Part shown: piece after piece, positions 50,316 to 59,517 of the stretch
Numbering within the stretch: position 1 is the first letter of the stretch
Layout of the letters: each line of letters begins with the position of its first letter
DNA from: Lachnospiraceae bacterium
GTDB lineage: Bacteria; Bacillota; Clostridia; Lachnospirales; Lachnospiraceae
Direction: 5' to 3'
Length of the DNA stretch: 64,000 nucleotides
Assembly (NCBI GenBank): GCA_017634975.1
Contig: JAGBMJ010000141.1
Location: forward strand, 1 to 64,000
Notes under the pieces: generated by a model
What the model saw: only the letters and a program-made list of their open reading frames with translations
The model's database searches: none
What the model was told of the DNA's origin: nothing
Program-made: the position numbers and the translations under genes

Positions 50316-52265
50316 ATGGATCCGCATTTGAATGAATATGTCAGCAATACCGCGAGGATCCGCGCATTATCGTCTCCGAGTATCCAGGATATCGACAATG
50401 CGGCGGAATACGGTACCCTGCTGCAGGACAATTTCATAACGATCGGCCAGCTGGCCAGGGAAAACCGGGATATCCTCTCGGAGCATCTTTTTCCGTTCCT
50501 GGAAGAGAGCGCATCCGTTACGAATGCCGATCTGGAGGGACTCGGGCGTTTTGAGGATTCCCTGCTGGATGCACAGACCATGGAAAATCTGGATCCCGCG
50601 ATCCACGCGGAGATCTCGGACAGTCTGCTGCACAAGGCAGAGCATGGGGATTCGGTCAAGCTTTTGTTAAAACAGCTGGATCGCGAGATCACGGCCTGCT
50701 ATACGATGCAGAATATTACCAGACGTTTAGGCACCTTTCCGCAGATCGCCGCAACCTACCGGGAGCGCGGACTGGAAGCCGGCAGAAAGATCCGGGATTA
50801 TCTGGAGCCGGAAGCCTTTGCCGGGCTTCCCGATAACGAGTGCCGCGAGCTGGTGCTGATCAATGCACGTAATATGTGGCTGCTTTACGAAGGGGAAACA
50901 CTTTCGCCGGAGAAAAACCGCGATCTGCTGGTGCAGATGGAAAAGGCGCTTGCACTGGCGGATGCGCCGTATTACCGCAGGCGTATGCCGATGTACGACT
51001 GGAGTTTTCATGAATTCCGCGCACTGCAGGATATCCTGAAACTGACGGAGTATAACAACGCGCGGGCGTTTCCTGCGGATGCGATCGAAAAGATCTGCGC
51101 ATACGGGGAACGTCTGGACCGGCTCTGGCATTCGGCACCGCTGTTTTATAAGGATCTGATGCACGAAAACGAACTGCAGATCCTGCTTGTGCGTGTCCGC
51201 TATCTGAACGGACAGGTTGCGGTGGAGGACTACCGCCGGAATCTGCTGGAGCTTTACAATTCGCGGGACCGGAACGACTATTCCCAGGCGGGGATGACGC
51301 TCAATCTGATGCTGCCGGCGGAATATATCCTGACACTGGATCCGGAGGCTCTGACTGAGGATGCCAAATACCAGGTCAGCCGCTTCTATCACGATACGCT
51401 GAATTATGCATTCCATATGTCGGGGCGTGATTCCCTGAGCTTTATGCTGGGATTTCTGTCCCATCTGCTGGATTGTTTTATCGAAGTGCCCGGAGGGATG
51501 ACCTTTGGCGAGATGTGTCTGGACTGTCTGGGTGCCCTGCATCCGCCGACCTACGTGCACAGCATCATGGTCGGGCAGATCACGCGCTGCCTTTGCCGGC
51601 ATCTGATGCGTCTGCATCCGGAATACTTTGCAAAGGTACCGATGGCGGGGGATACGGAAGCAATCCTCGGATTTGCCTATCAGTCGTCGGTCTGCCACGA
51701 TTTCGGCAAGCTGCTGATCACGGATACGATCATGGTTTACGGGCGCAAGCTTTTGGACAGCGAGTTTTTCCTGCTGCGCACCCATCCGAAGAGCGGCGCG
51801 GATATGATGCTGAAACACGAGTCCACACGGCCGTATGCAAAGATCGCACTGGCACATCACCGATGGTATAACGATTCAGCCGGCTATCCGGATGATCTGT
51901 GTACGGCGGAACTGCCGGAAAAGGTCTTTATCGATCTGGTCTGCTGTGCGGACTGTCTTGATGCGGCGACGGATACGGTCGGACGCTCCTACAACCGGGG
52001 CAAGACGATGGATGACTTTATCCTGGAGCTCAAGGAAGGCGCCGGGACACGGTACGCCCCATATCTGGCAGAGCTGTTTGATGATGCGGCGCTGCGGCGC
52101 GACCTGCGCTTCCTGCTGCAGCAGGGCAGACGCAGCAGTTATTCCAAGGTGTACCGCCAGTTAAAGGACCTGACGGACCAGAGCGTGCTCTACGGCGAAA
52201 ACTATGATTATAATGTGCTGGTGGCTTCGACGGTCGGCGGCACCTTCCGCCAGACGTTCTCATAA
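50316..52265 (+). CDS. single-unit HD-GYP-like protein, paralogue of 46393–50214
   Basis: A 649-aa protein homologous along its length to each unit of the neighbouring 1273-aa protein: NEYVSNTARIRALSSPSI matches the unit N termini. The C-terminal domain has HSIMVGQITRCLCRHLMRLHP, CHDFGKLLITD (about 460), RTHPKSGADMMLKHES, HHRWYNDSAGYPDDL and CADCLDAATDTVGRSYNRGK. ATG 50316 is chosen because homology starts there; a TTG at 50280 lies in the promoter and no ribosome site is visible. It is divergent from its paralogue, and a single-domain response regulator follows downstream. Confidence 0.8.
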   Translation: MDPHLNEYVSNTARIRALSSPSIQDIDNAAEYGTLLQDNFITIGQLARENRDILSEHLFPFLEESASVTNADLEGLGRFEDSLLDAQTMENLDPAIHAEISDSLLHKAEHGDSVKLLLKQLDREITACYTMQNITRRLGTFPQIAATYRERGLEAGRKIRDYLEPEAFAGLPDNECRELVLINARNMWLLYEGETLSPEKNRDLLVQMEKALALADAPYYRRRMPMYDWSFHEFRALQDILKLTEYNNARAFPADAIEKICAYGERLDRLWHSAPLFYKDLMHENELQILLVRVRYLNGQVAVEDYRRNLLELYNSRDRNDYSQAGMTLNLMLPAEYILTLDPEALTEDAKYQVSRFYHDTLNYAFHMSGRDSLSFMLGFLSHLLDCFIEVPGGMTFGEMCLDCLGALHPPTYVHSIMVGQITRCLCRHLMRLHPEYFAKVPMAGDTEAILGFAYQSSVCHDFGKLLITDTIMVYGRKLLDSEFFLLRTHPKSGADMMLKHESTRPYAKIALAHHRWYNDSAGYPDDLCTAELPEKVFIDLVCCADCLDAATDTVGRSYNRGKTMDDFILELKEGAGTRYAPYLAELFDDAALRRDLRFLLQQGRRSSYSKVYRQLKDLTDQSVLYGENYDYNVLVASTVGGTFRQTFS

Positions 52266-52266
52266 T

Positions 52267-52328
52267 GAGCCATGGGGACGGTTCTTGTGGCTCATTTTGA
52301 GCCGGAGAACCGTCCCTGTGGCTTTTTT
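52267..52328 (+). repeat. family C REP-like palindrome acting as terminator
   Basis: GAGCCATGGGGACGGTTCT, a loop with GGCTCATTTTGAGCC, then AGAACCGTCCCTGTGGC and eight T. The T-run makes this copy a plausible intrinsic terminator of the 50316–52265 gene. Other copies are at 53001, 60437 and 60996. The rest of the 317-base gap to 52583 holds a family B repeat and AT-rich sequence with short inverted repeats. Confidence 0.85.
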
Positions 52329-52330
52329 TT

Positions 52331-52374
52331 CTTGCCGTCCCCTTAAGGGGGAAGGTGGCCGAAGGCCAGATGAG
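52331..52374 (+). repeat. family B repeat
   Basis: CCGTCCCCTTAAGGGGGAAGG hairpin, then GGCCGAAGGCC and GATGAGA. It directly follows the family C copy, so two unrelated palindromes are adjacent. Confidence 0.7.
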
Positions 52375-52582
52375 ATGTCTTATCTCGAGGTGCAAAAATT
52401 TCACCACAAGATGAGGTGGCTCTATCGAGATCAAAAAATTTGACCTCGATATGAGGACGCAAAGTACCGTAGCCAAAACATGGGGTAAAATGATAGACAC
52501 TTCACCCGCTTAATGATATAATGTATATACATATCAGCACGGTGAAGACCTCTTTGGACTTTTGGAGAAAGGGGGCGGTCTT

Positions 52583-52960
52583 ATGAACATGAGCGGGCGG
52601 AAAAAGAGCATTCTGATCATCGATGACGATCCGGTCTATATGAAGATGGTGCACGAATGGCTCAAGGATGATTTCAAAGTAACGATGACCATCAGCGGCG
52701 GACAGGCGCTGGACTGGCTGAAGGAAAACAAGGCGGATCTGATCCTGCTGGACTATGACCTGCCGGTGATGCCGGGGCCGCAGATCCTCGAAAAGCTCCG
52801 GAGCGGTGCGGACACCAAAGAGACACCGGTGATGATCCTGACGGGGCAGAACGACCGGGAGAGCATCATGCGCATCCTGTCCCTGTGTCCGGCGGATTAC
52901 CTCTTGAAGAATATCGGAAGGGATGAGCTGCGGAACAAAGTGGCGAAATTTCTGAAGTGA
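52583..52960 (+). CDS. single-domain response regulator
   Basis: A 125-aa CheY-like receiver with no output domain. SILIIDDDPVYMKMV gives the acidic pocket, LILLDYDLPVMPGP the phosphorylated Asp, MILTGQ the Thr and YLLKNIG the Lys. ATG 52583 follows GGGGGCGG; the upstream in-frame ATG at 52562 has no site. No kinase is adjacent; the nearest signalling proteins are the HD-GYP-like genes upstream. It is an orphan regulator that may act on them by protein contact (inference). Confidence 0.93.
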   Translation: MNMSGRKKSILIIDDDPVYMKMVHEWLKDDFKVTMTISGGQALDWLKENKADLILLDYDLPVMPGPQILEKLRSGADTKETPVMILTGQNDRESIMRILSLCPADYLLKNIGRDELRNKVAKFLK

Positions 52961-52967
52961 CATCGAT

Positions 52968-52996
52968 ATCCCCGTCGTGATCGGCGGGGATTTTTT
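52968..52996 (+). terminator. terminator of the response regulator gene
   Basis: ATCCCCG (52968–52974) pairs with CGGGGAT (52985–52991), followed by a run of T. Confidence 0.85.
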
Positions 52997-53000
52997 GAAA

Positions 53001-53056
53001 GCCACGGGGACGGTTCTTGCGGCTCATTTTGAGCCGGAGAACCGTCCCCGTGGCTC
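53001..53056 (+). repeat. family C REP-like palindrome
   Basis: GCCACGGGGACGGTTCTTG, inner GGCTCATTTTGAGCC, then AGAACCGTCCCCGTGGC. The outer arms pair over 17 bases. The rest of the 410-base gap between 52961 and 53370 holds a terminator, a small inverted repeat and the pfl promoter and leader. Confidence 0.85.
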
Positions 53057-53107
53057 ATATCTCATATCGGCGCTGTTAAGCGCTTTTTTGTGCAAATTCT
53101 GTTTTAT

Positions 53108-53121
53108 GTAACATTAGTTAC
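53108..53121. promoter_or_regulatory. GTAAC-N4-GTTAC inverted repeat upstream of pfl
   Basis: A short perfect dyad about 130 bp upstream of the pfl promoter. It could be a binding site for a redox or global regulator, but it does not match a consensus I can name with confidence. Confidence 0.3.
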
Positions 53122-53243
53122 GGACAAAATCCTTCCGCGGGAATACTATGATCCCAGAGTCGGGAAGCGGTAGACATAACGTAACAACGCTTTTTTCGGA
53201 CAGATCCGTACAACATTTATTTATGAAAAAACGGTGTTCAAGG

Positions 53244-53273
53244 TTGACTATTGCCATCAAAACGGCTTATAAT
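53244..53273 (+). promoter_or_regulatory. pfl promoter
   Basis: TTGACT (53244–53249), 18-nt spacer, TATAAT (53268–53273). The transcript would start near 53280 with a GC-rich leader of about 90 nt before the AGGAGG ribosome site and ATG 53371. Confidence 0.75.
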
Positions 53274-53370
53274 AGACAGAGCTTGCGGGCGTGCCAAACT
53301 GCGCCCTCGGGGTACACGATTAGCGACCACAGTGGCCGTTAAATAATATCATTTTATAGGAGGCAATGCA

Positions 53371-55425
53371 ATGAGTGCAGAGTTTAGACCAGAATGGGAA
53401 GGCTTTACCGGCGGTAAGTGGGTAGGCGAAATCAACGTTCGTGATTTCATTCAGAAGAACTACACACCGTATGATGGTGATGATTCTTTCCTCGTAGGAC
53501 CGACACAGAACACAAAGGATCTGTGGGCGCAGGTACTGGATCTGTCCCGCCAGGAACGTGAGGCAGGCGGTGTATTGGATATGGATACCAAGGTAGTATC
53601 TACCATCACTTCTCACGGCCCGGGTTACCTGGACAAGAGCAAAGAGACCATCGTAGGTTTCCAGACCGATAAGCCGTTCAAGCGTTCCTTGCAGGTATAC
53701 GGTGGTATCCGTATGGCTGAGAAGGCTTGCGCAGACAATGGTTACACCGTAGATCCGGAGATCAGCGAGTTCTTCTCCGTACACAGAAAGACACACAATG
53801 CAGGCTGCTTTGATGCTTACACACCGGAGATGCGTGCATGCCGTTCCTCTCACGTAATCACAGGTCTTCCTGATGCTTACGGCCGTGGACGTATCATCGG
53901 CGACTATCGTCGTGTGGCACTGTACGGTATCGACAGACTGCTCGAGGACAAGCAGGCACAGAAGGATTCTACCGGCCGCGTGATGACCGATGATGTTATC
54001 CGTCTTCGTGAAGAGCTTTCCGAGCAGATGACAGCTCTGAAGATGATGAAGGAAATGGCTGCTTCTTACGGCATCGACATTTCCAAGCCCGCTACAAACG
54101 TACAGGAAGCTATCCAGTTCACATATTTCGGTTATCTGTGCGCAGTTAAGGAGCAGAACGGTGCAGCAATGAGCCTTGGCCGTACTTCTACTTTCATCGA
54201 CTGCTACGCAGAGCGTGACCTGAAGAACGGTAAGTTCACTGAGGAGCAGATCCAGGAATTCGTTGATCACTTCATCATGAAGCTTCGTTGCGTTAAGTTC
54301 GCACGTACACCGGAATACAACCAGATCTTCGCAGGCGATCCTGTATGGGTTACCGAGTCTCTGGGTGGTGTAGGTGTTGACGGACGTCACATGGTTACCA
54401 AGACCAGCTTCCGTTATCTGAACACCTTAAACAACCTGGGTGCAGCTCCCGAGCCCAACCTGACCGTTCTGTGGTCAACCAGACTGCCCAGACCCTGGAA
54501 AGAGTTCTGCGCTAAGATGTCCATCAAGTCTTCTTCCATCCAGTATGAGAATGATGACCTGATGAGAGTTACCCACGGTGATGATTACGCTATCGCTTGC
54601 TGCGTATCCTCCATGCGTGTTGGTAAGGAAATGCAGTTCTTCGGAGCTCGTGCTAACCTTGCAAAATGTATGCTGTACGCTTTGAACGGCGGTATCGATG
54701 AAGTATCCAAGAAGCAGGTTGGTCCGAAGTATCGTAAGTACGAAGGCGATGTGATCGAGTATGATAAGTTCATGCCGATGTTCGAAGATATGATGGAGTG
54801 GCTGGCAGATGTATATGTAAATACTCTGAACGTAATCCACTACATGCACGACAAGTACTGCTACGAGCGTGCACAGATGGCTCTGCACGACAGAGACGTA
54901 CGCCGCTACTTCGCAACCGGTATGGCTGGTCTGTCCGTAGTTGCAGACTCCCTGTCCGCAATCAAGTACGCTACCGTTAAGCCGATCCGTGATGAGGACG
55001 GTATCATCGTAGATTTCGAGACCACAGGAGACTTCCCGAAGTATGGTAATGATGATGATCGTGTTGACCAGATCGCTCACGACCTTGTTTCCAAGTTCAT
55101 GATGATGATCCGTCGTCACCACACCTACAGAAATGGTTTCCCGACCATGTCTGTATTGACCATTACTTCTAACGTAACCTATGGTAAGGCAACCGGTAAC
55201 ACACCGGATGGCCGTCGTAAGGGACAGCCGTTTGCTCCGGGTGCCAACCCGCTGCACGGCCGTGATACTCACGGTGCAGTAGCTTCCCTGTCTTCCGTAG
55301 CCAAGCTTCCGTTCGAAGACAGCCAGGATGGTATCTCCAATACCTTCACCATCATTCCGGGTGCCCTGGGTAAGGAAGATCAGGTATTTGCAGGCGACAT
55401 CGAAGTAGACCTGAGCAAGAAATAA
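53371..55425 (+). CDS. pflB: pyruvate formate-lyase catalytic chain without glycyl-radical domain
   Basis: A 684-aa chain that converts pyruvate and CoA to acetyl-CoA and formate in anaerobic fermentation. The catalytic adjacent cysteines are C410–C411 in [12 protein letters not shown], and [22 protein letters not shown] near the C terminus is typical PFL. Normal PFL is about 740–760 aa and ends with a glycyl-radical domain. This chain stops after [20 protein letters not shown], just where that domain should start. The missing part is encoded separately at 55766–56011. Codon use is strongly biased, as in highly expressed genes. AGGAGG lies 8 nt before the ATG. Confidence 0.95.
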
Positions 55426-55440
55426 GTAAAAACACAAACC

Positions 55441-55492
55441 TTGCCTCCCCCCTTTTGGGGGAAGGTGTCAGGCAAAGCCTGACGGATGAGGG
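55441..55492 (+). repeat. family B repeat between the split pfl genes
   Basis: GCCTCCCCCCTTTTGGGGGAAGG hairpin followed by GTCAGGCAAAGCCTGACGGATGAGGG. It fills most of the 85-base gap between the catalytic chain stop and the 72-aa gene. The distal GGGAGG used as ribosome site by the next gene lies just after it. Confidence 0.8.
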
Positions 55493-55510
55493 AAAAGGGA
55501 GGAAAGCGAT

Positions 55511-55729
55511 ATGGCAGATCAGAATATGACGGAAGAGCAGATGATCCAGGATCTGGTAGCGCAGTTGGACGGTGGTTTTGCCAACGGTGTAGGTCATGTA
55601 AATGTAGACGTGGACGAAAATGCTTCTGCAAAGAAGGAAGTAGAGACCATGGGCTGCACGGATTGCTCCCGCACGCCGCTCGCATGCTCCGTACCGACCC
55701 TGCATCAGGGATTGGACGATTACGAATAA
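55511..55729 (+). CDS. small protein resembling a radical-less half of the PFL glycyl-radical domain, with Cys tail
   Basis: A 72-aa protein not matching a family I know. Residues 15–35 (LVAQLDGGFANGVGHVNVDV) parallel the start of the glycyl-radical domain encoded 37 bases downstream ([20 protein letters not shown]). After that, the part with the radical Gly is absent; instead there is KKEVETMGCTDCSRTPLACS with C49, C52 and C59 and a final acidic YE. GGGAGGAAAG precedes ATG 55511. Being between the two PFL pieces, it may guard, chaperone or redox-tune the radical domain. This role is inference. Confidence 0.8.
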   Translation: MADQNMTEEQMIQDLVAQLDGGFANGVGHVNVDVDENASAKKEVETMGCTDCSRTPLACSVPTLHQGLDDYE

Positions 55730-55765
55730 TTATTAGGAATCGAATCTGATAGGAGGAAAATAACA

Positions 55766-56011
55766 ATGGCAGAAGCTAGTACAGCACAGATCAACAATCT
55801 GGTATCTTTATTGGATGGATATGCAACCAAGGGCGGTCATCATCTGAACGTTAACGTTCTGAACAGAGAGACCCTGCTGGATGCTCAGGCTCATCCGGAG
55901 AACTATCCGCAGCTGACCATCCGTGTATCCGGTTATGCAGTTAACTTCATCAAGTTGACTCCGGAGCAGCAGGCAGACGTTATCAGCCGTACATTCCACG
56001 AGAAGATCTGA
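55766..56011 (+). CDS. stand-alone glycyl-radical domain of pyruvate formate-lyase (GrcA-like)
   Basis: An 81-aa protein that matches the C-terminal domain of PFL end to end: [20 protein letters not shown], then [19 protein letters not shown], with radical glycine G56 in RVSGYAV, and the usual end ISRTFHEKI. In E. coli a similar spare part, YfiD/GrcA, repairs oxygen-cut PFL; here it is the only copy visible, so it must complete the truncated chain. AGGAGGAAAATAACA precedes ATG. It sits in the same orientation 340 bases after the catalytic chain, with the activase gene downstream. Confidence 0.95.
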
Positions 56012-56026
56012 TCGCGAGGCAATAGC

Positions 56027-57646
56027 TTGAGCGGTTCTGATCGTAAGACGATAACGACCAAGAGCAAAGAACAGGCGCAGGGAGTGGCAACATTCCCTGC
56101 GTTTTTGTGCTCTCTATTGTTCGGAATGGGTATTTTTTTGTTTGCCACCGTGTTTTTTGCACATGTTCATCCGCTGGTTCCCTATGATATGGACGACTGG
56201 CTGTATGTCGGCTGGCGAAGAAATGCCTATCCCATCTGGAAGGACTGGAATCCTGCCAGGATCTTTCCGGAAACCTTTATGTCTCTGGTTTCGGACTTCG
56301 GCGTGCATGTACTGATGCCGATATTACATCTGGATTATATATACGCCCTGATCCTTGCGCATGCCATATCGGTGGCATCTTTTATCACATTGTATGTGCT
56401 GTTGTTCCGCTCTTTTATAAAGGAGAAAACAAACATCTCCTTCGCGGCATCCTATATGCTGACGCTGTTATTTCTGCTGTTTCATTTCAGCATCTTCCGG
56501 CGGCAGTACAACGGAAACCAGCATCTGTTCTGGACCTTTAATGTGACGGGCTATTATTACTATGTGATCCCGAACCTGATCAATGCTTCGCTGGTATTGT
56601 TCTTTATGGGGAAGGGACGCGACGGGATCCGGAATCTGTCCCCGATCCGAAAAGGGATTTTGCTGCTGAGTATCTATCTGGCAATGTTTTCCAATCTGTT
56701 TTCCAGCATTATACTGGTGGTTCCGGCTGCCGGGGAGGCGGTGGCAGACGCGTATCTGTGTATGGTGAAGCGGAAGCAGAGTTTGAAACAGTATCTGGAA
56801 AAAACATTCTGGAATCTGTTGATCGCCGGCCTCTGGCTGGTTTCTCTGGTCTATGAAGCCAATGGCGGGCGCGCGGATGGTGCGGGCAGTTTTGCGCTCT
56901 CCGAGAGTATCTCCGGATTCTTTGCCTGGGGCAGACAGTTGAATATGCAGACGACGGCATTGTCGCTGTTGATCGTGGCGGTGGGAGCAGTCCTTTGGCT
57001 TTGTTCTTTAAGGAAAGATGCGCATCCGGATTCGGATCAGAAGAAAGATGCAGGATCGCAGTCGGCTGCTGTGAACGGAACATCTTCGGGAAACAGCCGA
57101 TGGATCTCAGGCGATGTTCCGGTATCTGCTCCCGGCTTTGTCTTTTGTATGCTGATCTGTGCGGCCTTTGAGATCCTGCTCTGTGCAAAGGTAGGCGTGG
57201 ACAAGCTCGAGATCTGCCGTGTGATCTTCAGTGTATGTTTCTATGCATTTATGGTGATCTTTTGGTTCGCGGGTACGATCCTCGTAAAGTTCCCGAAGAC
57301 CCTGATCCTGTTACCGCTTATCTTCTATGTTTTGCTGATGAATACTCGCATGGGCGAGCGGATCTTCTTAGAGGAGAATGGGATCAATCTGGATGCACAG
57401 CTGTGCATCGCGATCGATCAGGATATCATCGATCAGGTGATCGCTGCTGACCATGCAGGGCTTACGGAAGCCGTGATCGTAGTGCCGCTTGAGGAGGATC
57501 AGGAGGAGGACAACTGGCCTCACGTGATCCGTATGGGGAGTGCACTTTCCCAGACACTCTACAAACATGGCATCATCAGCCGGCGCCTGGAGCTGGAGAT
57601 CCGCCCTGACCATGCCATGAACGAGAAATACGGATTACAGTACTGA
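56027..57646 (+). CDS. GT-C-like polytopic membrane protein within the pfl locus
   Basis: A 539-aa protein with TTG start 15 bases after the radical-domain gene and GCGAGG upstream; the first membrane helix begins before the first internal ATG, which supports the TTG. About ten membrane segments follow. The first external loop has PYDMDDWLYVGWRR, with the acidic pair typical of GT-C enzymes. A soluble loop at about 325–365 is Ser/Asp-rich. The C-terminal 90 residues are soluble. Its presence between the radical domain and the activase is unexpected; it may be a recent insertion. Confidence 0.55.
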   Translation: MSGSDRKTITTKSKEQAQGVATFPAFLCSLLFGMGIFLFATVFFAHVHPLVPYDMDDWLYVGWRRNAYPIWKDWNPARIFPETFMSLVSDFGVHVLMPILHLDYIYALILAHAISVASFITLYVLLFRSFIKEKTNISFAASYMLTLLFLLFHFSIFRRQYNGNQHLFWTFNVTGYYYYVIPNLINASLVLFFMGKGRDGIRNLSPIRKGILLLSIYLAMFSNLFSSIILVVPAAGEAVADAYLCMVKRKQSLKQYLEKTFWNLLIAGLWLVSLVYEANGGRADGAGSFALSESISGFFAWGRQLNMQTTALSLLIVAVGAVLWLCSLRKDAHPDSDQKKDAGSQSAAVNGTSSGNSRWISGDVPVSAPGFVFCMLICAAFEILLCAKVGVDKLEICRVIFSVCFYAFMVIFWFAGTILVKFPKTLILLPLIFYVLLMNTRMGERIFLEENGINLDAQLCIAIDQDIIDQVIAADHAGLTEAVIVVPLEEDQEEDNWPHVIRMGSALSQTLYKHGIISRRLELEIRPDHAMNEKYGLQY

Positions 57647-57649
57647 ACT

Positions 57650-57669
57650 ATCCCCTCAAGGGGAAGGCA
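57650..57669 (+). repeat. family B hairpin, short copy
   Basis: TCCCCTCAAGGGGAAGGC lies 4 nt after the membrane-protein stop. Only the hairpin part is present. Confidence 0.6.
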
Positions 57670-57711
57670 AGAGGTAGTACCGCTGCATAGAAATTATTGC
57701 AGATAAGTCAA

Positions 57712-57740
57712 TTGAAGTGTTTCAGGAGATGTAGTAAAAT
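57712..57740 (+). promoter_or_regulatory. promoter of the PFL-activase gene
   Basis: TTGAAG (57712–57717), 17-nt spacer, TAAAAT (57735–57740). A separate promoter means the activase can be expressed independently of the pfl genes. Confidence 0.7.
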
Positions 57741-57774
57741 ACAAATATCCAAGAAAAAACCGGGAGGGTGCGAT

Positions 57775-58533
57775 ATGAAAGGACGAATTCATTCGACAGA
57801 GAGTTTCGGAACAGTAGACGGACCGGGTGTCCGTTTTGTAGTATTTTTGCAGGGGTGCCCAATGCGCTGCGCGTATTGCCATAATCCGGATACCTGGGAT
57901 CCGAAAGGCGGAACACCGACGGAGGCATCCGAGATCATCGAGCAGTATATCCGTAATGAGAGCTTTTATCAGGGCGGCGGTATCACCGTAACCGGTGGAG
58001 AACCGCTGATGCAGATCGATTTTCTGCTGGAACTGTTTACACTGGCAAAGCAGCACAACATCCATACCTGTATCGATTCCTCCGGTATTATGTATCACCC
58101 GGGTGAGAGCGAGTACAATAAGAAGCTGGATGAGCTGATGAAGATCACGGATCTGGTGATGCTGGATATCAAGCACATTGATCCGGAGAAGCATAAATGG
58201 CTGACGCAGCAGCCGAATGACGGGATCCTGGCATTTGCGAAATATCTGGATGAAAAGCATGTGGACGTGTGGATCCGTCACGTAGTGGTGCCGGGGATCA
58301 CGGACGACGATGAGTACCTGTATAAGCTGGGCTATTTCATTGGCGGTCTGAGCAATCTGAAGGCACTGGATGTGCTGCCGTATCATACGATGGGACTGCC
58401 GAAGTATGAGAAACTGGGTATCGAATACCGCTTAAAGGGTGTGCCGGCCATGGACAAGGAAGTGGTGCTGGAGAAGAAAAAAGTGATCCTGGACGGTATA
58501 CGAAAACGCCGCGAGGAGTTACAAGGGAATTAG
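57775..58533 (+). CDS. pflA: pyruvate formate-lyase activating enzyme
   Basis: A 252-aa radical SAM enzyme that abstracts hydrogen from the PFL glycine to form the radical. The cluster motif is C28-x3-C32-x2-C35 in GCPMRCAYCHNPD, preceded by STESFGTVDGPGVRFVVFLQ, the standard PFL-activase N terminus. TGGEPLMQ and VMLDIKHIDPEKH follow. ATG 57775 is preceded by GGGAGGG; an upstream in-frame ATG at 57697 precedes the promoter and is rejected. It should act on the separate 81-aa radical domain here. Confidence 0.97.
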   Translation: MKGRIHSTESFGTVDGPGVRFVVFLQGCPMRCAYCHNPDTWDPKGGTPTEASEIIEQYIRNESFYQGGGITVTGGEPLMQIDFLLELFTLAKQHNIHTCIDSSGIMYHPGESEYNKKLDELMKITDLVMLDIKHIDPEKHKWLTQQPNDGILAFAKYLDEKHVDVWIRHVVVPGITDDDEYLYKLGYFIGGLSNLKALDVLPYHTMGLPKYEKLGIEYRLKGVPAMDKEVVLEKKKVILDGIRKRREELQGN

Positions 58534-58652
58534 TTAAGCCTAATCAAGATTTCGTAACACTAATATATGCCGATATGCTACTATGAATATGGTCGGGGAA
58601 GACTAAATTAACAGCTGTTTATGGCTGAGAGAAAAACAGGAGGAAATGAAAA

Positions 58653-58823
58653 ATGGCATATGTTATTAAAGACGGATGTATTTCTTGCGGAACTTGTGCA
58701 GGCGGATGCCCGGTAGGCGCTATCTCTGAGGGTGACGGCAAGTTCGAGATCGATAAGGATACCTGCATCAGCTGCGGCGCTTGCGCTGGCTCTTGCCCGG
58801 TAGGTGCGATCGAAGAGGAATAA
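58653..58823 (+). CDS. 2[4Fe-4S] ferredoxin
   Basis: A 56-aa clostridial-type ferredoxin with two cluster motifs: C9, C12, C15, C19 (CISCGTCAGGCP) and C38, C41, C44, C48 (CISCGACAGSCP). AGGAGG lies about 9 nt before ATG 58653. It carries low-potential electrons and may supply the activase, which needs a reductant; this link is inferred from position. TGCTACTAT near 58576–58584 is a possible extended -10. A terminator follows at once, so it is probably a single-gene transcript. Confidence 0.97.
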   Translation: MAYVIKDGCISCGTCAGGCPVGAISEGDGKFEIDKDTCISCGACAGSCPVGAIEEE

Positions 58824-58847
58824 GAAATTCCGAATAAGATTAAAATG

Positions 58848-58887
58848 ATCCGGCTGTTTCCGATGTGGAGACAGCCGGATTTTTTTA
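58848..58887 (+). terminator. ferredoxin terminator
   Basis: ATCCGGCTGT (58848–58857) pairs with ACAGCCGGAT (58871–58880), followed by seven T. Confidence 0.92.
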
Positions 58888-59517
58888 CATATTTTTATAG
58901 TGCTGACAAAGATCTTTCAGAAAGCATTCTTCGCATTTGGGGCGCTGGGATTTGCAGATGGTGCGTCCCAGTGCGATCAGCTGTGTGTTGATGGCGATCC
59001 AGTGATCCTTCGGGATGGCCTTCATCAGGGCATACTCTACCTTTTCGGGATCTTCCTCTCCCGTGAGTCCGAGCCGGCGGGCCAATCGTCCCACGTGGGT
59101 ATCGACGACGACGCTTGGTTCGTGAAAGACATTGCCGCGGATCACGTTGGCGGTCTTGCGGCCCACGCCAGGCAGGGAAGTCAGGCTTTCGAGGTCCTTT
59201 GGTACTTCACTGCCAAAGTCGTCTCGAAGACGTCGGCAGCATGCAATGATATTACGTGCTTTATTATGGTAGAAACCGGTTGAATGGATATCCTTCTCCA
59301 GCTCCGTTAGATCGGCATCGGCAAAGGCTTCGATATCCGGATACTTCACAAACAGATCCCTGGTCACCAGATTGACCCGGGCATCCGTGCACTGGGCGCT
59401 CAGTATGGTGGCGATCAGCAGCTGCCAGGCATTTTGGTGGTCTAAGTAGCAGGGAATATCGGTACCGTATTTCGCGTCCAGACGCGACAGAAGTTCTTTG
59501 ATCTCTGACTTTTTCAT
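58885..59517 (-). CDS. nth: endonuclease III
   Basis: A 210-aa DNA glycosylase/AP lyase that removes oxidised pyrimidines. The helix-hairpin-helix LPGVGRKTANVI holds the catalytic Lys, VVDTHVGRLARRLGL the catalytic Asp, and the C-terminal C-x6-C-x2-C-x5-C (CKSQRPKCEECFLKDLC) binds a 4Fe-4S cluster. Length is normal. GAGGA lies 8 nt before ATG 59517. In the 266-base gap to the next gene, TATAAT and its complement ATTATA lie 2 nt apart at 59606–59619 and may be opposing -10 boxes. Confidence 0.96.
   Translation of the reverse strand: MKKSEIKELLSRLDAKYGTDIPCYLDHQNAWQLLIATILSAQCTDARVNLVTRDLFVKYPDIEAFADADLTELEKDIHSTGFYHNKARNIIACCRRLRDDFGSEVPKDLESLTSLPGVGRKTANVIRGNVFHEPSVVVDTHVGRLARRLGLTGEEDPEKVEYALMKAIPKDHWIAINTQLIALGRTICKSQRPKCEECFLKDLCQHYKNM

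Follow-up and report, generated by a model that had tools for sequence, protein, structure and literature searches.

A cysteine-tailed small protein encoded within a split PFL operon of Lachnospiraceae, and its apparent replacement in relatives by a tail on the PFL large chain

A 72-residue protein, here called X72, is encoded between the two pieces of a split pyruvate formate-lyase (PFL) in the window, the whole stretch of 64,000 nucleotides of Lachnospiraceae DNA analyzed here. Its first half is homologous to the start of the glycyl radical domain, and its second half is related to cysteine-bearing tails carried by the PFL large chain of relatives without X72. The link to split PFL, the homology of both halves and the replacement of X72 by a PFL tail emerge from sequence comparison. 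The favored reading, at a probability of about 0.5, is that PFL works here from three pieces, a large chain, a GrcA3 cartridge and a dithiol module, the last being X72. Within it, X72 rather probably docks in the strand slot, and a redox reaction of its dithiol at the active site would be given slightly under even odds. The features of the window that bear on this reading are as follows.

53371..55425, + strand: PFL large chain, 684 aa (Pfam PFL-like, 2.6e-213), stopping before the radical domain
54598..54603, + strand: active-site Cys pair C410-C411 (IACCVSS) of the PFL chain, from sequence and alignment
55497..55502, + strand: GGGAGG, ribosome-binding-like by eye, 8 nt 5′ of the X72 ATG
55511..55729, + strand: X72, 72 aa, an ORF between the PFL chain and GrcA3 with a partial radical domain and a dithiol tail
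55544..55612, + strand: X72 residues 12-34, the adaptor half, which by profile and BLASTP is a homologue of the first part of the radical domain
55640..55726, + strand: Cys module of X72, residues 44-72, with C49, C52 and C59 followed by SVPTLHQGLD, related to the tails of X72-less split PFLs
55766..56011, + strand: GrcA3, stand-alone glycyl radical domain, 81 aa (NCBIfam NF038360, 159.2 bits against a cut-off of 158)
55931..55933, + strand: codon of the presumed radical glycine G56 (RVSGYAV) of GrcA3, from the sequence and from E. coli PFL alignments ending at G734
57775..58533, + strand: PFL-activating enzyme (radical SAM), 252 aa (TIGR02493, 299.7 bits, cut-off 231.75)

The large chain matches TIGR01255 with 1087 bits over positions 1-665 of 744, and its residues 6-673 align to 8-681 of E. 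coli PFL (1h16 row). Since GrcA3 aligns to residues 682-757 of the same protein, the enzyme is split at about 681/682. Judged by eye, the C410-C411 pair is the probable counterpart of E. coli PFL C418/C419, whose role is treated in an excerpt of PMC12338860. The C-terminal tail of the 684-aa chain contains zero Cys. A 72-aa frame lying between two PFL pieces had been proposed in the first-pass annotation, and the chain and the 81-aa domain are indeed found on either side of it. The closest relatives of both X72 and the PFL are MAGs labelled Lachnospiraceae.

Several other elements surround these genes. A 539-aa ORF on the + strand, membrane protein-like by eye, separates GrcA3 from the activating enzyme. 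Just 3′ of the latter, a 56-aa ORF (58653-58823) resembles a 2[4Fe-4S] ferredoxin by eye and is a possible electron donor for the activating enzyme. A long inverted repeat (53000-53058, by eye) precedes PFL, and ORF translations suggest a similar element within 52030-52500. The stretch between PFL and X72 (55445-55500) is hairpin-rich, with GTCAGGC..GCCTGAC recognizable by eye. The exact 26-base hairpin pattern occurs in this genome only here and on a duplicate contig; on contig C102 of the same assembly, X72, GrcA3 and the hairpin pattern recur at coordinates identical to those in the window, which probably reflects assembly redundancy. Rfam at gathering thresholds yielded no match over 52900-58900.

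X72 is a genuine protein-coding gene. At least 395 relatives were confirmed among 591 candidate stretches, and 80 of them were kept and read. Over 46 near relatives (1035 pairs) the median pN is 0.192 and the median pS 0.803, and dN/dS is about 0.105 over the 259 unsaturated pairs. Neither Pfam nor NCBIfam holds a family describing X72; the earlier remark that no described family fits it is thus upheld as far as these two collections go. A search of the open-licence literature found no description of, or experiment on, X72, the Cys tail or split PFL in these bacteria.

The gene is closely tied to split PFL. The order PFL-X72-GrcA3 is observed in 79 of the 80 kept loci, the contig ending at the 80th, and all three genes occur together in 49 of 58 further regions, one of which (L162) is ordered PFL-GrcA3-X72. 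X72 is present in 77 of 299 genomes of the same family; 85 genomes matched at E<=0.01, and eight with weak matches only (E about 0.002-0.01) were not counted. Beyond the family it was detected at E<1e-6 in four of 391 genomes of the class (G445, G555, G350, G404). Homologues with no link to PFL had been named at the outset as evidence that would speak against a PFL-related role, and the opposite pattern was obtained, with a stand-alone GrcA3 accompanying X72 in 76 of the 77 genomes that have it; the completeness of the one exception, G006, is 67%. Stand-alone GrcA3 itself is found in at least 114 genomes, at least 38 of them without X72. A Cys-module profile run against 60 relatives' genomes returned 29 matches below E 1e-4 in frames of 74-105 aa, and the four that were inspected (L240-L243) are all X72 beside PFL and GrcA3.

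The stricter statement that X72 always lies in the operon was rejected, as it is located away from PFL in L122, L127, L130, L132 and L239. For four X72s away from PFL, split PFL is encoded elsewhere in three of the genomes. Two distant copies (L127 4971-5180 and L132 4995-5204) lie, by eye, near ORFs resembling the kinase and reductase of proline synthesis in both genomes. A second X72-like family was also noticed (L167 4932-5213, L168 4965-5222, L169 4977-5291, L171 4971-5219 and, more weakly, L170 4947-5189), with the pattern MIEEI..HLD...RMSV... followed by CC and YGR.A.ETVGLLDMYTD. Its members occur in genomes that also have X72, and no PFL or GrcA3 was found on the stretches examined. Extra stand-alone GrcA3 genes, with no PFL on the stretch examined, are present in the window's own genome (L199 4064-4306, contig C89) and in relatives (L203, L205, L206); these PFL-less genes resemble spare cartridges.

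The adaptor half of X72 corresponds to about residues 682-709 of E. coli PFL. BLASTP aligns X72 12-34 to GrcA3 9-31 with 11 of 23 residues identical. The Smith-Waterman score of the pair is 48, reached by 0 of 5000 shuffles; as the top shuffle attains 47, this single pair alone is modest evidence. Profiles are more telling: hhalign of 64 X72s against 19 GrcA3s gives 96.6% (E 5.7e-10 for one comparison, 34 columns), and in single-sequence scans with the GrcA3 model NF038360, 53 of 64 members match at E<=0.1, the best at 8.6e-7. The window's own X72 reaches E 0.15 and 12.1 bits, against the model's cut-off of 158. A strand signature, GH-x-N, is nearly invariant in X72 (G28 64/64, H29 63/64, N31 61/64). 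A class-wide X72 profile also gave weak matches (E 0.001-0.01), over profile positions 1-37, on frames of 744-806 aa, and these are full-length PFLs (16 ends examined). The radical glycine loop RVSGYA is absent from X72 and from 22 inspected members of the 64-row alignment. Both parts of the original description, a partial copy of the radical domain and the loss of its radical loop, were therefore confirmed by the profile matches and by the missing RVSGYA.

This half invites comparison with GrcA/YfiD, since X72 12-34 shares the start of the radical domain and is encoded in the same operon as GrcA3. Unlike GrcA/YfiD, X72 lacks the radical glycine loop, is too short to accommodate the C-terminal helix and bears a Cys tail in their place.

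The Cys module has a conserved core. Across the 64 aligned members (L158 and L159, which end before C59, were left out), C59 and P62 are kept in 64/64, C52 and A58 in 63/64, T63 in 61/64 and C49 in 36/64. Two cysteines per protein are found in 26/64, three in 37/64 and four in 1/64, and the typical motif is [DE]C-x3..6-AC-x-[IV]P[TN]-L-x-EG-x-D. The distance from N31 to C59 is 25-36 residues, with a median of 28, and N28 and G56 of the window's GrcA3 likewise lie 28 residues apart. The three-cysteine CxxC tail noted in the first-pass annotation is present here as C49, C52 and C59, but the CxxC itself is a trait of a sub-clade. A CxxC metal site as the core of X72 was accordingly rejected, because C49 is kept in only 36/64. 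The two frames set aside (L158 5019-5207 and L159 5001-5240, both on the − strand) stop soon after the second Cys; in the L158 genome the X72 profile match runs on past the TAA, and the pair may represent a truncated form or a pseudogene.

Among 51 split operons with no adjacent X72 and a readable PFL end, 45 have a PFL tail with at least two Cys, while tail Cys are found on 0 of 130 PFLs beside X72. In the first batch, the large chain had a Cys-pair tail at 30 of 32 loci. A second batch of 20 regions, taken as a test after the rule had been seen, gave at least two tail Cys in 15 of 19, one region (L238, with no PFL on the stretch) being left out. Examples are DCANMACNIPNIEESID (L187) and DCSNGACASPTLFEGLD (L207). 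None of the 45 Cys-bearing tails has fewer than two Cys, and the last two lie 0-6 residues apart; C-x4-C is the commonest spacing (18/45), and adjacent CC accounts for 12/45. The fuller motif C-x-[IVAST]P[TN] is found in 27 of the 45, and the other 18 include a CACCEPN group and short CC ends. By hhalign, X72 matches all 45 tails at 95.6% (E 1.1e-8) and a motif-selected alignment (25 of the 27 motif-bearing tails) at 97.1% (E 6.9e-11). The Cys half of X72 and the PFL tails thus appear alike at the sequence level beyond their cysteines. The 18 motif-less tails and the 12 adjacent-Cys tails may be of independent origin and could differ in how they act.

A sensitive X72 profile detected no intact X72 in the 45 tail genomes; it matched GrcA3, PFL tails and one frame of full-length PFL size, and in one tail genome (G057) a doubtful frame with two stops. 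Six operons of the 51 have no tail; for one of them (L210), a divergent X72 (L239) is encoded at another site in the genome. The remaining five (L198, L222, L229, L230, L231) have neither form, which indicates that the module is dispensable in some lineages and led to rejection of the statement that X72 is needed for every split PFL. A dithiol tail is also missing from three further operons (L200-L202), whose genomes encode X72 at another place; one of the three has a single Cys. Apart from the C-terminal end, the PFL positions that differ between X72-bearing and X72-less operons are scattered sites and are confounded by phylogeny. As 45 of 51 X72-less operons have the tail, it is the Cys tail that persists and not the partial copy, and the copy is best seen as an adaptor.

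With the tails left out, a quick IQ-TREE phylogeny of 120 PFL rows shows X72 and the tail in alternation. Of the 15 changes that the X72 label needs, starred branches force at least 8; the tail label needs 13, of which at least 6 are forced. Independent pairs on starred branches agree 6 to 0 under the median pairing (p 0.031, range 0.031-0.125, the sign test giving 0.125 under the least favorable pairing), and 35 of the 117 forks of this quickly searched tree are open. The rows comprise the window, 14 of the 58 near-family X72 loci with a complete PFL, 47 of 49 divergent X72 loci, 44 of 45 tail operons and five of the six without a tail; two of the eight full-length rows fell out. Most simply read, the sequences point to several events in which PFL gained the Cys module by fusion and the adaptor was lost, or to events in the opposite direction. 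Some tails may have had a separate origin. What is kept seems to be the Cys pair at this place, with the radical-domain copy bringing it there.

These observations are consistent with the following mechanism. The working part of X72 would be its C-terminal Cys module, and the first half would copy the stretch by which the radical domain plugs into the large chain, so bringing the module to that chain in trans. Once the module is fused to the large-chain C-terminus, the adaptor would become needless and X72 could be absent. When GrcA3 is missing, is being exchanged or has been cleaved by O2, a slot beside the active site would stand open, and a strand-tethered dithiol could reach the active site while the radical domain is out. 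The dithiol might enter this slot and form a reversible mixed disulfide with the active-site Cys-Cys pair, or re-reduce it, so that the large chain would stay repairable until a fresh GrcA3 docks. The variable Cys spacing is easier to reconcile with a flexible dithiol than with a rigid metal site; plain thiols, or a metal bound jointly with the large chain, would be compatible with it too. A fuller version of this scheme is possible but less likely than not: the three-piece PFL would serve strict anaerobes with GrcA3 as its disposable cartridge, the tethered dithiol entering the emptied radical channel, capping the catalytic Cys pair as a reversible disulfide under O2 and yielding the site to a new GrcA3. 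The dithiol would be supplied either as a tail or on X72 as a decoy radical domain, with lineages having switched between the two several times.

Parallels can be drawn with other radical enzymes. In class I and monomeric class II RNR, a Cys pair lies on the C-terminal tail of the radical enzyme's large chain, as in the tailed PFLs. The tail of E. coli NrdA has the spacing C-x4-C, the same as the commonest PFL tail. RNR belongs to a different enzyme family, the likeness lies in the Cys-pair tail, and an active-site disulfide is not known to be part of the normal PFL cycle. A Cys-rich domain encoded by a separate gene is reported for the NrdJ subclass NrdJa+b in a portion of PMC5704485.

PDB sequence searches with the X72 and tail profiles gave weak or chance matches only (thioredoxin, adenosylhomocysteinase, a stretch of a viral glycoprotein), together with a designed protein at E 0.0005 in which no stretch passed alone. 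The top solved matches of the 684-aa chain are 38la and 38lb ("Formate acetyltransferase"), which are known by chain name and may be a natural split or a construct. The former ends in LGKED, and the latter continues with GECDMC, a Cys-containing end. Radical-domain searches of the PDB found no radical domain in either entry, no X72-like partner is among the PDB matches listed, and nothing on the two entries was found in the open-licence literature.

The main rival to a dithiol role is that X72 or the tail acts as a docking factor, giving the truncated chain its missing recognition element in trans and aiding GrcA3 and activating-enzyme docking and radical installation, with a structural role for the Cys. 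It owes this standing to E. coli PFL residues 696-733, described in an excerpt of PMC8683613 as a recognition element needed for docking of the spare part YfiD, since the X72 copy partly covers them; this overlap also speaks for the adaptor role in the favored reading. The large chain, whose match to E. coli PFL reaches residue 681, resembles tPFL, from which residues 696-759 were removed; the same excerpt reports undetectable YfiD binding by tPFL and a glycyl radical concentration 32-fold lower than that of cPFL:YfiD. The first half of X72 matches part of the stretch that the large chain is missing, and the conservation of PTL/PNL, EG and D behind the Cys is suggestive of a binding motif. However, the fused tails occur where X72 is missing without containing any copy of that stretch, and two Cys are among the best-conserved residues of X72. 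Docking aid is possible, with the odds well against it. A related proposal, that X72 plugs the radical-domain slot as a placeholder against oxygen and proteases until GrcA3 displaces it, draws on the same homology to the radical-domain start and on a tether length similar to that leading to the radical glycine. The fused tails keep the Cys pair but lose the plug, which makes plugging unlikely as the shared task, and as an account of X72 the proposal is doubtful.

A metal or Fe-S accessory role would place X72 with the small subunits of benzylsuccinate synthase (BSS beta and gamma) and 4-hydroxyphenylacetate decarboxylase (HPAD), which like X72 are small, Cys-containing partners of glycyl radical enzymes. 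According to an excerpt of PMC12590467, small subunits of this type adopt a HiPIP-like fold with a [4Fe-4S] cluster, and BSS beta offers an example of an accessory part by which the formation of thiyl radicals is controlled. X72, by comparison, has two widely kept Cys; the four needed for a [4Fe-4S] cluster of its own are available in 1 of 64 members, most having two or three, and the 0-6 spacing of the tails varies as well. The chains of these small subunits are not among the matches of the PDB profile searches, and such a role is improbable. That X72 is a functionless, decaying duplicate of GrcA3 would account for its position next to GrcA3 and its missing radical loop, but is contradicted by the low dN/dS, by the invariance of C59 and P62 and by the replacement of X72 by a related tail at several places in the tree; this explanation can very nearly be dismissed.

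PFL is a central fermentation enzyme and the textbook case of oxygen damage. A conserved third part that relatives swap for a Cys tail on PFL points to upkeep or restoration of the enzyme in gut and rumen anaerobes, of which no description was found in the open-licence literature. With the three-part arrangement, the assembly of split glycyl radical enzymes and their survival in air become directly testable. The Cys tail or X72 also provides a genomic marker by which hundreds of small proteins without a Pfam or NCBIfam model can be annotated.
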